In this document: positions 36,180-41,572 of the stretch, piece by piece
How positions within the stretch are numbered: the stretch's first letter is position 1
Layout: each line of letters begins with the position of its first letter
Assembly (NCBI RefSeq): GCF_003841485.1
Contig: NZ_REFY01000003.1
Location: 496,001-560,000, forward strand
From: Natrarchaeobius halalkaliphilus
Lineage (GTDB): Archaea > Halobacteriota > Halobacteria > Halobacteriales > Natrialbaceae
DNA: 64,000 bases
Direction of reading: 5' to 3'
The notes under the pieces: model-generated
What the model was told of the DNA's origin: nothing
Database searches by the model: none
What the model saw: only the letters and a program-made list of their open reading frames with translations
Translations under genes and position numbers: made by a program

Positions 36180-36725
36180 CTACTTCGTCGCCTCTTCGAG
36201 GACGAGGGTGTCGTCTTCGAGGTAGTGTTCGAAGTGGTGTCCGTCTTCCTCGAGCGTGACGAGGATCTCCCGGAGGATCTCCGCCGTCGCGTAATCGCCG
36301 AGGTTCTCCGCGAGTTCGATGCTGTCGCGCATCGACTCGATGATGTCGCCGTACATCTCGAGGTCGTTCTCGAACATCGTTCGGACGTCGTAGACGTCCT
36401 CGCCCTCGAACTCGACGGTCGCGCGTCGTTCCTGATTCGCCGGCCCCGAAACCGGAACGCCACCGAGCGCCTGAGCGCGCTCTGCGATGACGTCCGCTCC
36501 TCCTTCGACGTGTTCGTATGCCTCCTCTAAGAACTCGTGCAGCGGAAGGAACTCGGCTCCCTCGACGACCCAGTGGTGCTTTTTCAGCTGGTGATACAGG
36601 ACGTACGAGTTCGCAAGTTCCGTGTTCAGTGCGTCGACGATCTGTTCTGCTTTCTCCTGGTCGAGTCGGAGTTCGTTCTCCTCGACGGCGTCGGCCGACT
36701 GACGGACGGTTTTCTGAGTGCTCAT
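36180..36725 (-). CDS. dpsA: DNA-protecting ferritin-like protein DpsA
   Basis: 181 residues from ATG at 36725 (MSTQKTVRQSADAVEENELR). The Dps four-helix bundle shows the ferroxidase-type residues in NSYVLYHQLKKHHWVVEG and EEAYEHVEGGADVIAERAQALGG, and the last helix carries LVTLEEDGHHFEHYLEDD. DpsA stores iron and protects DNA against oxidative damage, as studied in Halobacterium. A TTTAAG box lies about 27-30 nt upstream of the ATG on the minus strand (36754-36760), pointing to near-leaderless transcription. Confidence 0.93.
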   Translation of the reverse strand: MSTQKTVRQSADAVEENELRLDQEKAEQIVDALNTELANSYVLYHQLKKHHWVVEGAEFLPLHEFLEEAYEHVEGGADVIAERAQALGGVPVSGPANQERRATVEFEGEDVYDVRTMFENDLEMYGDIIESMRDSIELAENLGDYATAEILREILVTLEEDGHHFEHYLEDDTLVLEEATK

Positions 36726-37077
36726 CGTACGACGTGAATACAGTCGCATTCCACTTAAAGCTTCGCCCTCTACGAAATGATGTTTACGTATTTGAAAAAT
36801 TAATTTCCTAATTGAGAAATATTGACATCGGACGTCGTCCACCGGGTGAGTCGACCAGAACTCGAAGGGGTCGAATGCGACGTGCGTTTTCATCTCGCCT
36901 GCCACCGCGATCACCTGAACCTGGCCCGATGTGCCGGCGTCGTACTCGAGGGTTGTGCTCCCCCAACGGCCGAGATCTCGTTAAGATCTTGCTACGCATC
37001 TAGTAGGGTTTAGCTCCGCTTAACAATATCGTTAACTTCATTAGTAATCCATCACAACGAAGAGGTGGTGACTACGT
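36726..37077. other. 352-nt divergent intergenic region between dpsA and the His-rich lipoprotein
   Basis: No credible open frame is present. On the dpsA side there is a TATA-like box at 36754-36760 and an AT-rich stretch at 36776-36830. On the other side, AT-rich DNA at 37015-37050 (TTAACAATATCGTTAAC and CATTAGTAATC) precedes the lipoprotein. A purine-rich GAGGTGGTGA near 37060 could act as a Shine-Dalgarno element for the lipoprotein ATG at 37078. The middle 200 nt are ordinary GC-rich sequence. Confidence 0.55.
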
Positions 37078-38055
37078 ATGACTGACAAGGCACGATCGAC
37101 CTCTCGTCGAAAGCTTCTCGCAACCACAGGATCTCTCGCTGCGCTCGGAATCGCTGGCTGTCTCGGTGATGACGACGGTAGCGACGGAAACGGTGGTGAC
37201 GATCACGACGACGACCACGATCACGACGATGACCATGACGATCATGATCACGACGATGACCATGACGATCATGATCACGACGATGACCACGACCACGATC
37301 TCGCAGTTGCTGAGTTCGAGGTCCTAGACCGCAACCACGACGAGGACGTTCTCGTCTACGTCCACGGAACGCACTGGCACCAGGATCCACTCGAGGTCCC
37401 CCACGACGATACCCTCTCGCTCGGTGCCTACGTCGAGGACGAAGACGGCAACGAGGTCGAACTCGGTGACGGAATCGAATTCACCGGTGCGGTCGTCGAC
37501 GACGCGACCGAGCTCGTCGAGGTCGAGTCACACGGCGATCACGTCCACGTCCACGGCAACGAAGACGGGTTCACCGACATCGTCTTCCAGCTGATCGAGG
37601 ACGGCGACGTCGTCTACGAGACGCCGGAACTCGAGACCGAGGTCGGCCATCACGACCACGACGATCACGATCACGGTGAGGTCGACGAACTCTCGATTCT
37701 GGATCGGGCCGAAGATCCACACGAGGAAGTCGCGACGTTCCACGACGGACACTGGGACGGGGAGGTACCACACGTCCACGTCGACGATAACGTCTCGCTC
37801 GGTGCGGAGTTCCTCGACGACCACGACGACGAGATTCCGATCGGAAGCTCCGAAGAGTACGAACTCGCGGTGATGCTCGCAGACGACGCCGAGGAAGGTG
37901 TCGTCGAGATCGATCCGGACGACCACTGGCACGGCGATCACGTCCACATCTACGGCAAATCCGAGGGCGAAACCGACGTCGTCTTCGCGCTCTGGCACGA
38001 CGATCACGCCGACTGGGAAAGCGAACCGATCGCCGTTTCCGTCGAGGACCACTAG
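37078..38055 (+). CDS. His/Asp-rich Tat lipoprotein with two HG-x-HWH metal-binding modules
   Basis: 325 residues. SRRKLLATTGSLAALGIAGC is a twin-arginine lipoprotein signal with lipid cysteine at residue 28. Residues 41-74 are a His/Asp-only tract (27-nt DNA repeats). Two related modules follow: residues 75-188 (YVHGTHWHQDP, then GDHVHVHG and DIVFQLIEDGD) and 201-322 (FHDGHWDGEVPHVH, then HWHGDHVHIYG and DVVFALWHDD). Both run as an immunoglobulin-like beta sandwich pattern and end before a histidine-rich tail. The same module is inserted in the ZnuA-like protein 184 nt downstream. I infer an extracytoplasmic zinc or other metal chaperone or reservoir; this has not been shown. Confidence 0.8.
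   Translation: MTDKARSTSRRKLLATTGSLAALGIAGCLGDDDGSDGNGGDDHDDDHDHDDDHDDHDHDDDHDDHDHDDDHDHDLAVAEFEVLDRNHDEDVLVYVHGTHWHQDPLEVPHDDTLSLGAYVEDEDGNEVELGDGIEFTGAVVDDATELVEVESHGDHVHVHGNEDGFTDIVFQLIEDGDVVYETPELETEVGHHDHDDHDHGEVDELSILDRAEDPHEEVATFHDGHWDGEVPHVHVDDNVSLGAEFLDDHDDEIPIGSSEEYELAVMLADDAEEGVVEIDPDDHWHGDHVHIYGKSEGETDVVFALWHDDHADWESEPIAVSVEDH
37219..37272 (+). repeat. 27-nt tandem repeat in the His/Asp tract
   Basis: Two identical 27-nt units, 37219-37245 and 37246-37272, each encode nine residues of His and Asp. They lie in the low-complexity metal-binding tract of the lipoprotein and can vary in copy number in frame. Confidence 0.85.
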
Positions 38056-38207
38056 CGACGCTCGATCTCGAGGCGCGCGTGCTCGCTCGCTTTTCGGTTC
38101 GTCGGTTATCGAAGTCGGTTGTCGGTGGCTGTTTGTGTCTCGCTTCGTGTTACTAACACTACGCTAGCGTGTACCACGAGTTAATAAAAAACCATCATCA
38201 AGTAATA

Positions 38208-38220
38208 AGACTTTTATTCA
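38208..38220 (+). promoter_or_regulatory. Candidate TATA box of the znu operon
   Basis: CTTTTATTCA at 38211-38220 lies about 20-30 nt before the ATG of the binding-protein gene at 38240, at TATA distance for a leaderless start. The preceding 45 nt are AT-rich. No perfect operator palindrome is seen here. Confidence 0.45.
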
Positions 38221-38239
38221 CGGGCCCGTAGGTACTGAT

Positions 38240-39649
38240 ATGACTCTCTCACGCCGTTCAGTACTGACGTGTGGCGGGGCCGCCCTCGTCGGCAGCAGTC
38301 TCGGAGGCTGTTTGAGCGAACCAAACGAGAGCGATCCGAACGGATCGGATGGGACGTCGAAGGGATACGCCGCGTTCTTCGCGCTGTGGGACTGGGCGAA
38401 ACACGTAAGCGGTGAGGAGATGGGCTTCGAGAATCCGATCGAGGCCGGCGAGATGGGACACGGCTGGGAACCCCCCGCAGACATCCAGCGCGAAATCGCC
38501 GACTCGGACGTCTTCATCTATCTCGACACCGCCGAGTTCTCCTGGGCCCAGACGATCGCATCGGATCTCGAGATGGATTACGACGACGTCACGGTGATCG
38601 ATGGGATGGCCGATCTCGAGAACGAGTTGCTCCCGATCGACAGGGAGACGGACGACGATCGCGAGCCGGCAACCGATTACGATTTCGATCCCGACTCCGT
38701 CTCGATCGGCGGGTTCGACGTGTACGACGGCCAATCCGGCGAGGAGGTCGCCTACTGGCACGGCGATCACTGGCACGGCTCCCTTCCGCCGATCCCCCTC
38801 GACGGATACGCGACCGTCGAGGGCGTTTTCGAGGACGGAGACGAGCGAGTTCTTCCACTCGGTGAGGACGAACAGTTTCGAATCGACGCGCGGATCGTCG
38901 ACGGCGCAAACGAGGACGTCGTCGAAATAACGTCTCGAGGGGATCGCGTCGAGCTCCACGGTCTCGAGACCGGTCGGACGCGGATCGTGTTCGAACTGGT
39001 CGGTGACGGAGACGTCGTCTGGGATACCAGCGACGACAACATCACCACAGAAACCGTCGAGGAGTTGGACGAATCGACGGCACCGGAGTTCTACGATCCA
39101 CACGTCTGGGTCGATCCGGTCATCGCACAGGACATCGTCCGAACGATCGCTGACGGTCTCGCTGACGTCGATCCGGACAACGCAACCGTCTACGAAGAAC
39201 ACGCAGCGACCTACACCGACCGGCTCGCGGACGTCGATCGGCAGTTCGAAGAGCTCGTTGAGGAGGCCTCGCGCGACGTTGCCGTCCTCGCCGGTCACGA
39301 CTCGTTCCAGTACATAGAACACCGCTATGAGTTCGATATCCACACTCCGGTCGGTATTTCGCCCGACGCCGCCGAGACCGAGTCGGACATCTCCGAGACG
39401 ATTCGGGTCGTCGACGAACACGGGATCGACACGATCCTCTACGATCCGTTCGAGACGCCCAACCCCGACGAAGACGTCCCTCAGATGGTCGAGCTCCTCC
39501 TCGAAGGTACCGACGCCGAAGAGTACGCCCCGCTTACTCCCGCAGAGGGGACAACAGCGGAGTGGAACGAGCAAAACTGGGGCTGGGTCGAACAGATGGA
39601 AGAGATCAACATTCCGTCGCTCCGACGAGCGCTCGGAGCGAGAGAATAG
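38240..39649 (+). CDS. znuA: ZnuA-like metal ABC transporter binding protein with inserted HG-x-HWH module
   Basis: 469 residues, long for the cluster A-I family (usually about 300-330). SRRSVLTCGGAALVGSS plus lipobox GGC gives a Tat lipoprotein with cysteine at residue 24. Metal-ligand histidines are seen at GHGWEPP (His74), YDPHVWVDP (His288) and AGHDSFQYIEHRY (His353), with an acidic fourth ligand near YDPFE (402). Instead of the usual His-rich flexible loop, residues about 153-275 form a module related to the upstream lipoprotein: YWHGDHWHG, GDRVELHG and IVFELVGDGD. Substrate is probably zinc but manganese is possible. Overlapping promoters are not needed, since the permease and ATPase follow. 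Confidence 0.85.
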   Translation: MTLSRRSVLTCGGAALVGSSLGGCLSEPNESDPNGSDGTSKGYAAFFALWDWAKHVSGEEMGFENPIEAGEMGHGWEPPADIQREIADSDVFIYLDTAEFSWAQTIASDLEMDYDDVTVIDGMADLENELLPIDRETDDDREPATDYDFDPDSVSIGGFDVYDGQSGEEVAYWHGDHWHGSLPPIPLDGYATVEGVFEDGDERVLPLGEDEQFRIDARIVDGANEDVVEITSRGDRVELHGLETGRTRIVFELVGDGDVVWDTSDDNITTETVEELDESTAPEFYDPHVWVDPVIAQDIVRTIADGLADVDPDNATVYEEHAATYTDRLADVDRQFEELVEEASRDVAVLAGHDSFQYIEHRYEFDIHTPVGISPDAAETESDISETIRVVDEHGIDTILYDPFETPNPDEDVPQMVELLLEGTDAEEYAPLTPAEGTTAEWNEQNWGWVEQMEEINIPSLRRALGARE

Positions 39650-39695: not shown

Positions 39696-40436
39696 GTGAC
39701 CTCGGTCGTCGACATTCGGAACGTAACGTTTGCCTACGGCGAGAAGATCGCGCTCGATGACGTCTCGCTATCGATCGAGGCGGGAGATTTCCTCGGCTTG
39801 ATCGGACCCAACGGATCGGGCAAGACGACGTTGTTGCACATCATGCTCGGGTTGCTTACCCCCGACAGCGGTTCGGTCGATCTGTTCGGCCGGCCGATCG
39901 ACGAGTTCGATCAGGGCGAGCGGATCGGCTACGTTTCACAGCAGGCGACCAGCGGCGGCGGCACGATGCCCGTTACCGTCCGCGAGTGTGTTCGGATGGG
40001 ACGGTTCGCTCACGTCGGTCACTCGAGACTGAGCGACACCGACCGACAGATCGCAGACGAGGCCCTAGAGACCGTCGGCATCACGGGCCTCGCTGACCGT
40101 CGAATCAATCAACTCTCTGGCGGACAGCGCCAGCGTGCCTACATCGCGCGGGCGCTCGCCTCGGAAGCGGACCTCCTCGCACTGGACGAACCGACCGTCG
40201 GCGTCGACGCCGAATCGAGGGACGCGTTCTACCGGCTGCTCGATTCGCTGAACGACTCCGGGATCACGATCATCCTGATCGAACACGATATCGGCGTCGT
40301 CACGGACCGAGCGGACCAGATCGCCTGTATCAACACGAAACTGTACCACCACGGTGACACCGAATCGTTCGTCGAAAGCGACGCACTGAGCGAAGCCTAC
40401 GGCGCGACGGGAACGGTCGTTCACCATCACCACTGA
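39696..40436 (+). CDS. znuC: Metal ABC transporter ATP-binding protein
   Basis: 246 residues from GTG at 39696, the first start before VVDIRNVTFAYG. Walker A is GPNGSGKTTLL, the signature LSGGQRQR and Walker B LLALDEP, with the switch histidine in LIEHDIG. The C-terminus ends in VVHHHH, a short His tail also seen in zinc transporters. It energises import of metal delivered by the binding protein. It lies 46 nt after znuA and 35 nt before the permease gene. Confidence 0.93.
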   Translation: MTSVVDIRNVTFAYGEKIALDDVSLSIEAGDFLGLIGPNGSGKTTLLHIMLGLLTPDSGSVDLFGRPIDEFDQGERIGYVSQQATSGGGTMPVTVRECVRMGRFAHVGHSRLSDTDRQIADEALETVGITGLADRRINQLSGGQRQRAYIARALASEADLLALDEPTVGVDAESRDAFYRLLDSLNDSGITIILIEHDIGVVTDRADQIACINTKLYHHGDTESFVESDALSEAYGATGTVVHHHH

Positions 40437-40471: not shown

Positions 40472-41572
40472 ATGAGCGGACCAAACGAACACGCAACGGA
40501 ATCGACCACCGTCTCGGAACCGAACAGCCACGCGTCCGCCGATCGTTGGCGAGCGCTCGAGGTCGTCGGCGTTTCGATCGTCGGCGTTCTCGGCGCTCTA
40601 ATGATCGGCGTCATCACGCTCGATTGGCTCCGACACTACCCGTCGCTCGGGAACGGTCCCGTTCTCCTGTTCGAGCAGCTTCGAATCGCAGGGATGTGGG
40701 CCGACCACTACCTGGGAACCGATGTCTTTGCCCACCCGTTCATGTGGCGTTCGATCGCCACAGGCGTGTTGATCGGAATCGTCGCACCGCTCGTCGGGAC
40801 CTATCTGGTTCACCGACAGATGGCGCTCATCGGGGAAACGCTCGCACACACCGCCTTCGCCGGCGTGGCGATCGGCCTGCTGGTTATCGCGGTGACCGGA
40901 TTCGAAGGATCGCTGTTGCTCGTCGCCCTCGTCGTAAGCGTCATCGGCGCGCTCGGCGTCCAGTGGCTCACGGAACGCACCAGCACGTTCGGTGACGTTC
41001 CCATCGCAATCATGTTGACCGGGAGTTTTGCGATCGGAACGTTGCTCATCAGCTGGGGGCGCGGATTCATGTCGGTCTCGATCGAGATCGAAGGGTTTCT
41101 GTTCGGGAGCCTCTCGGTCGTCAGTCCGAGCGGAGCGCGGATGATGGCCGTTCTCAGCGTCGCCGTCGTCGCCGTCGTCATCTACACGTACAAACAACTG
41201 CTGTTCATCACGTTCGACGAACAGGCGGCGCGGGTCGCACAGTTCAACGTCTCGGGCTACAACACGTTGCTCGTCGTCATGACTGCCGTCGTGGTCGTCG
41301 GCGCGATGCAGGTTCTCGGCGTGATCCTCGTCGCAGGGATGCTCGTTATCCCCGTCGCGGCCGCCACACAGATCGCACGGAGCTTCCGCGAGACGCTGTA
41401 TCTCTCGATCCTGTTCGGACAGCTTTCGATCGGCGGCGGCTTCGCGTTCGCCATCAGCCAGAGCCTCCCCTCCGGCGGCTCGATTATCCTCGTCGCGATC
41501 GCCATCTACCTGGTTTCGATTTTCGTCTCGCTGCTGGCGGGTCGCTCGAGCGCTGCGATCTCGATGCACTGA
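40472..41572 (+). CDS. znuB: Metal ABC transporter permease
   Basis: 366 residues with about 8-9 transmembrane helices. The ABC-3 permease signatures are present: ATGVLIGIVAPLVGTYLVHRQMALIGETLAHTAFAG and LLVVMTAVVVVGAMQVLGVILVAGMLVIPVAAA. The first 30 residues are a polar extension not usual for the family. It forms the membrane channel of the znuABC system. A near-direct repeat TACTGATACGATACTGATG spans the start region (40456-40474) and may affect translation. Confidence 0.92.
   Translation: MSGPNEHATESTTVSEPNSHASADRWRALEVVGVSIVGVLGALMIGVITLDWLRHYPSLGNGPVLLFEQLRIAGMWADHYLGTDVFAHPFMWRSIATGVLIGIVAPLVGTYLVHRQMALIGETLAHTAFAGVAIGLLVIAVTGFEGSLLLVALVVSVIGALGVQWLTERTSTFGDVPIAIMLTGSFAIGTLLISWGRGFMSVSIEIEGFLFGSLSVVSPSGARMMAVLSVAVVAVVIYTYKQLLFITFDEQAARVAQFNVSGYNTLLVVMTAVVVVGAMQVLGVILVAGMLVIPVAAATQIARSFRETLYLSILFGQLSIGGGFAFAISQSLPSGGSIILVAIAIYLVSIFVSLLAGRSSAAISMH

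Follow-up and report, generated by a model that had tools for sequence, protein, structure and literature searches.

The layout of the locus described here has a counterpart in the actinobacterial anchored-repeat ATP-binding cassette (ABC) system, which comprises the TIGR03769 domain, the TIGR03770/71 transporter, the TIGR03772 receptor, and the TIGR03773 wall protein. In that system a domain lies inside the receptor before metal ligand 2 and recurs in several copies in a neighboring surface protein. In Corynebacterium diphtheriae the system (troA-dip0445) is regulated by zinc and Zur (PMC6711530), and for C. pseudotuberculosis it has been proposed that the wall protein acts as a receptor (PMC3022926). 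In the pneumococcus, zinc transfer to the cluster A-I receptor AdcAII from PhtD, a surface HxxHxH zinc protein that is co-operonic with it, has been shown by nuclear magnetic resonance (PMC3842936). Likewise, the extracellular zinc chaperone AztD supplies the cluster A-I receptor AztC, and a flexible AztC loop before ligand 2 (residues 117–133, the D-loop) is needed to receive zinc from AztD (PMC7463823, PMC6689063). Here we analyze a 64,000-nucleotide stretch of the Natrarchaeobius halalkaliphilus genome (contig NZ_REFY01000003.1, positions 496,001 to 560,000; hereafter the window), in which a module of about 115 residues occurs twice in a Tat (twin-arginine translocation) lipoprotein and once within the ZnuA-like receptor encoded downstream of it. 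We propose, with a probability of about 0.6, that this lipoprotein is a surface metal collector that donates metal to its importer via the module in the receptor loop. Judged from sequence comparison, the layout is already known from Actinobacteria and the domain itself is undescribed.

A module shared by a lipoprotein and a metal receptor

Several lines of evidence bear out the claim, made in an earlier note on this DNA, that the same module is present twice in the lipoprotein and once in the receptor. First, pairwise local alignments of the three copies score 183, 192, and 164 against shuffled means of 38–47 (z of 16–21, with none of 2,000 shuffles scoring as high). The earlier note had raised the concern that the similarity might be low-complexity matching of His and Asp. 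With all D, E, and H residues masked, z is still 10–18, and this source of similarity is therefore ruled out. Second, a hidden Markov model (HMM) built from the three copies matches lipoprotein residues 77–189 (130 bits) and 202–322 (130 bits) and receptor residues 156–269 (151 bits), and it detects a total of 87 full-length copies across 41 haloarchaeal loci. Third, AlphaFold2, run on alignments that comprise 25 lipoproteins and 37 receptors, predicts the same 11-strand immunoglobulin (Ig)-like β domain for both lipoprotein copies and the receptor insert, with a mean block pLDDT (predicted local distance difference test) mostly about 80–96 within the modules. The predicted strands of copy 1 (77–84, 90–96, 99–101, 105–109, 112–121, 134–139, 147–151, 155–160, 164–174, 177–181, and 185–190) follow the same order as those of the receptor insert (156–163, 169–174, 177–180, 185–187, 190–199, 213–219, 228–232, 236–241, 245–255, 258–262, and 268–273), and those of copy 2 span residues 204–323. 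An insert that folds unlike the lipoprotein domains, the other concern raised earlier, is thus not what the models predict.

The features of the locus are as follows, with conservation counted over the 37 aligned receptors.

37020..37048 (+), promoter element TTAAYAANATCGTYANNTTCATTASTAAY upstream of the lipoprotein gene, a putative operator overlapping the promoter
37078..38055 (+), Tat-type lipoprotein gene (325 residues), read from its translation as Arg10-Arg11, lipobox Cys28, a linker rich in His and Asp between lipobox and modules (about residues 31–74), and two modules
37306..37647 (+), module copy 1, lipoprotein residues 77–190, with His96, His99, Trp100, His101, His152, and His155
37681..38046 (+), module copy 2, lipoprotein residues 202–323, with His222, His225, Trp226, Asp227, His285, and His288
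38240..39649 (+), ZnuA-like (cluster A-I) metal receptor gene (469 residues), encoding a lipoprotein with lipobox Cys24
38459..38461 (+), receptor His74, expected metal ligand 1 (GHGWEP), invariant (37/37)
38696..39064 (+), module copy 3, receptor residues 153–275, at the receptor's histidine loop
38759..38776 (+), HGDHWH motif of the receptor module, residues 174–179
39101..39103 (+), receptor His288, expected metal ligand 2 (DPHVW), His in 32/37 and Lys in 5/37 (the DAKFF subgroup)
39296..39298 (+), receptor His353, expected metal ligand 3 (GHDSF), the zinc-type choice (37/37)
39443..39445 (+), receptor Asp402, expected metal ligand 4 (YDPFE) (37/37)
39696..40436 (+), importer ATPase gene (ABC type), with a GTG start
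40472..41572 (+), importer permease gene (ABC-3 family)

The histidines of the module are highly conserved. In the receptor insert, His174, His177, and Trp178 are invariant (37/37), which equals the conservation of the ligands His74, His353, and Asp402 and exceeds that of His288, and His179 is found in 34/37. Among the lipoprotein copies, each histidine of the first pair (module-alignment columns 24 and 30) is present in 37/39, and those of the second pair (columns 104 and 107, His152 and His155 in copy 1 of the window) in 37/39 and 35/39. The receptor copies have histidine at the second pair in 14/37 and 17/37, and the window receptor has Arg233 and Arg236 at these positions. We infer that the metal site would be more complete in the lipoprotein copy and weaker or short-lived in the receptor copy. 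The core motif given in the earlier note, HG-x-HWH, fits copy 1 and the receptor copy (HGxHWH), both of which thereby carry the HxxHxH motif of Pht proteins, but not copy 2, which reads HDGHWD. Outside the modules, Arg10, Arg11, Gly27, and Cys28 of the lipoprotein are invariant among 25 relatives.

The core of the receptor is a member of the ZnuA/AdcA/YcdH receptors. Pfam PF01297 scores 132.4 bits (cut-off 29, E = 2.8e-38) and matches only the ZnuA core, the Foldseek matches in the PDB are led by AdcA, YcdH, Lbp/Lmb, AdcAII, and AztC (E about 1e-16), and the alignment contains the zinc-type ligand set of three His and one acid. The window receptor differs from these proteins in its folded insert of about 115 residues at the histidine loop, between His74 and His288. 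When this receptor is compared with an HMM of 49 receptors that lack the module, the insert interrupts the match near HMM positions 127/125, just ahead of ligand 2. Given the role of the corresponding AztC loop, the module therefore sits at a loop known to be important for transfer from chaperone to receptor. The module had been thought to replace the His-rich loop; it does sit at that loop, but the two coexist in one haloarchaeal subgroup (loci L069, L072, L074, L075, and L076), which retains the module plus a His-rich stretch ahead of it. This subgroup has DAKFF for DPHVW, with Lys in place of the ligand 2 His.

No Pfam or NCBIfam model matches the module, no solved structure matches its profile (best E of 0.06, unrelated), and a literature search found no paper describing its motif. 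Foldseek aligned the lipoprotein with generic Ig-like domains of S-layer (surface-layer) proteins and adhesins. The suggestion that no described family contains the module thus holds for the domain sequence but not for the architecture, which is annotated in Actinobacteria. Eight actinobacterial receptors that we checked carry an insert of about 210–230 residues ahead of DPHLW and have neighboring proteins with repeats. Nevertheless, the anchored-repeat domain belongs to another family: the hhalign probabilities for the module are 1.9% and 0.3%, the module HMM has no match in the eight actinobacterial loci, and the best TIGR03769 score in the N. halalkaliphilus genome is 13.3 bits (cut-off 30.9) and lies elsewhere. 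The receptor is likewise outside TIGR03772, with 56.2 bits over the core region only (cut-off 350.45). Furthermore, the lipoprotein is anchored by a Tat lipobox, whereas anchored-repeat proteins are anchored by a sortase signal. Three other identities for the lipoprotein were rejected. It matches no Pfam or NCBIfam family at E ≤ 1, including Pht (PF04270) and ZinT, and Pht units are short three-strand repeats with a fold other than that of the module. AztD is a β-propeller whereas the lipoprotein has two predicted Ig-like domains, and AztC lacks an inserted chaperone copy. AdcAII is not known to carry a Pht domain, unlike the window receptor with its own module. Modules, one or two in each, are also present in surface-type proteins of about 760–950 residues that have no known domain (L060, L061, L062, L067, and L071), one of which ends in a weak PGF-CTERM-like signal.

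The lipoprotein and receptor genes are followed by those of the ATPase and the permease, all on the forward strand. The ATPase matches ABC_tran (E = 8e-33) and the permease PF00950 (E = 1e-53); their top NCBIfam models, AztA (E = 9e-55) and AztB (E = 3e-40), are under the cut-off. Of the 58 module-bearing frames of receptor size in a sample of the haloarchaeal class, 33 lie within 4.5 kb of another module gene, which in 31 cases is upstream on the same strand. The lipoprotein–receptor pair is therefore common but not obligatory. Element TTAAYAANATCGTYANNTTCATTASTAAY matches the window exactly, where 0 matches are expected from shuffled sequence, and a looser form of it has a single site in the whole genome; the element is kept upstream of many related lipoprotein genes. 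The half-site TTA[C/G]TAA with a flanking base precedes 16/31 lipoprotein genes and 8/37 receptor genes, compared with 0.4% of stretches drawn at random from these loci, an enrichment compatible with co-regulation of the two genes. A haloarchaeal DpsA gene (36180–36914, reverse strand) lies divergently upstream of the lipoprotein gene, and this arrangement recurs in loci L043, L054, L058, L064–L066, L077, and L078.

The module in other receptors and operons

By alignment search, the module is present in 51 of 292 sampled genomes of the haloarchaeal class, representing 22 of 77 genera. We assessed its wider spread with an exact DNA scan for HGDHWHG across public genomes, which is a sample and not a census, so that the taxa named here are a minimum. 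Many matches of the scan are chance motifs without the module. Among the matches listed, the module was verified in Thermoplasmata, ‘Halarchaeoplasma’, Izimaplasma, Nitriliruptoria, Myxococcota, Gemmatimonadota, Syntrophomonadaceae, and Tindallia, mostly in metagenome-assembled genomes (MAGs) from sediments (CSSed, T1Sed, T3Sed, and B1Sed, which we take to be Kulunda soda lakes). Mis-binning is an unlikely explanation for this spread because the GC content of the contigs ranges from 44 to 76%, most of the lineages are represented by several MAGs, and receptors from outside haloarchaea have cores of non-haloarchaeal type.

Based on a receptor-core tree built with the module insert removed, module-bearing receptors fall in four places: in haloarchaea, in Thermoplasmata and Halarchaeoplasma inside the archaeal module-less receptors, in Izimaplasma, and in Nitriliruptoria among the actinobacterial receptors. 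A single clade of module-bearing receptors is rejected by 274 log-likelihood units (approximately unbiased test, p-AU = 1.8e-52), and the insert occupies the same loop in all four groups. The insert is thus found in four or more distinct receptor lineages, a count that fits separate insertion and exchange of the loop by recombination alike. In the module tree, Izimaplasma receptor copies cluster with Izimaplasma lipoprotein copies (SH-aLRT 97), and in haloarchaea the receptor copies mostly form clades apart from the lipoprotein copies; many other forks lack resolution because the domain is short. The N. halalkaliphilus genome also encodes a second ZnuA-type receptor, without the module, on another branch of the receptor tree (G000:C6:72306-73070, L009).

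In some lineages the receptor and several modules are fused. Thermoplasmata receptors have the order N-MOD-MOD-C-MOD (MOD, module; N and C, the receptor lobes), two haloarchaeal MAGs encode N-MOD-MOD-C, and a Thermoplasmata receptor with a circular permutation at the loop (C-N-MOD-MOD) still has its modules on the loop end. These one-protein versions support a common function of receptor and collector. The permuted receptor gene (L138:955-2628, reverse strand) is flanked upstream by a gene for a winged-helix-like regulator and downstream by one for an ABC ATPase.

Other inserts occupy this loop as well. Two methanogen receptors from the same phylum (L311:4782-6938, reverse strand, and L312:5560-7638, forward strand) have an insert of another kind, about 385 residues long and with an HGDHFH motif, and one of the two gives weak Pfam hints of a β-propeller. 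Identity of this insert with AztD is unsupported by phmmer or a two-sequence profile. The haloarchaeal receptor L313:4402-5910 (forward strand) has yet another type of about 140 residues, and the same domain follows the module in a Bacillota lipoprotein of a cobalt operon (L161:731-1678, reverse strand; phmmer E of 3e-9, BLASTP identity of 28%).

In soda-lake Bacillota the module lipoprotein lies beside a second kind of importer. It adjoins CbiM in a cobalt energy-coupling factor (ECF) operon with the layout CbiQ-ATPase-lipoprotein-CbiM in Syntrophomonadaceae (L091, L161, and L194) and Tindallia (L198). Pfam confirms CbiQ and the ATPase in L161 and L198 and CbiM in L091 and L198, and cbiC/cbiD lie downstream in L091. 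If the module lipoprotein is a metal donor, its presence beside two unrelated metal importers is to be expected. The cobalt context also warns against naming the module zinc-specific.

Proposed metal donation and its alternatives

We propose that the module is an undescribed Ig-like, histidine-bearing domain that would handle metal. The surface-anchored lipoprotein would gather a scarce transition metal with its two modules and its His/Asp-rich tether, and would hand this metal to the receptor of the adjoining ABC importer. In this archaeon the metal is most likely zinc, as suggested by the ligand type and the nearest folds. The receptor module, at the loop beside the three-His/one-Asp site, would accept the metal first or hold the donor, and the metal would then move to the receptor site for import. 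We infer that the histidines bind metal, that the haloarchaeal metal is zinc, that transfer is direct, and that docking occurs via the shared module. The extracellular reservoir or chaperone envisaged in the earlier note accordingly persists as a metal collector alongside an importer, based on the histidines, the gene linkage, the one-protein versions, and the cobalt ECF context. A broader idea, which we put forward tentatively and consider somewhat short of an even chance, is that of a portable metal-relay module of Archaea and several bacterial phyla from hypersaline alkaline habitats, planted repeatedly and independently in the receptor loop and paired also with cobalt ECF importers, in which donor and acceptor recognize each other or pass metal through the same domain.

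Several observations weigh against metal donation through the receptor module. The second histidine pair is often lost in receptors, and the receptor copy may bind metal differently from the lipoprotein copies. In the class sample, 25 of the 58 module-bearing frames of receptor size stand alone, with no further module gene inside 4.5 kb. Furthermore, given the cobalt context and the frequent divergent Dps gene (iron or stress), the metal need not be zinc everywhere. The unpaired receptors, together with 17 module genes of the class sample that are far from module-bearing receptors and the separate clades of most haloarchaeal receptor and lipoprotein copies, would suit a system without docking, in which the receptor copy is a folded His-rich loop that raises local metal and the lipoprotein buffers that metal at the surface on its own. 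We consider this doubtful: contact is favored by the one-protein versions with several loop modules, by the local sharing of modules in Izimaplasma, and by the need for the loop in chaperone-to-receptor transfer (PMC7463823). The Bacillota lipoprotein in its cobalt operon, with cbiC/cbiD nearby in L091, and the Dps gene divergently upstream in the window and several other loci could also mean that the module carries metal but that this operon imports cobalt, nickel, or iron. However, the third ligand is His353 and not the Glu of manganese receptors, and the nearest folds of the receptor are mostly zinc receptors, which makes a metal other than zinc improbable here.

It is very improbable that the module is a structural or adhesive, S-layer-like surface domain without a metal role, whose histidines stabilize the fold or the surface. 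Although generic Ig-like domains of S-layer proteins and adhesins are its Foldseek matches, and modules are present in the surface-type proteins of about 760–950 residues without known domains, such a role is at odds with the strict conservation of H-x-x-H-W, the repeated insertion at a metal-receptor loop, and the two metal-importer contexts. We would be most surprised if the lipoprotein guarded against excess metal by sequestration and did not feed uptake. Non-specific metal binding would be expected of its many histidines and of its tether rich in His and Asp, but the lipoprotein is linked to import genes, both of the ABC importer and of the cobalt ECF system, and no efflux gene was seen beside it at the loci viewed.

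Metal donation through the receptor-loop module would bear on the surface loading of ABC metal receptors and the role of the ZnuA histidine loop, a long-standing open question. The same domain is found in the loops of at least four receptor lineages and in neighboring surface proteins, which makes a relay testable with small soluble domains. If the portable-relay idea is true, the loop before ligand 2 would be a general socket for metal-donor domains, and its occupants would include this module, the TIGR03769 domain, and the other insert types described above, of which there are at least two. A shortage of metals in alkaline brines is a possible selective force. With the module, metal uptake in archaea and bacteria gains a domain family as yet unclassified, and a name for this family would help to annotate many ‘hypothetical’ His-rich lipoproteins.

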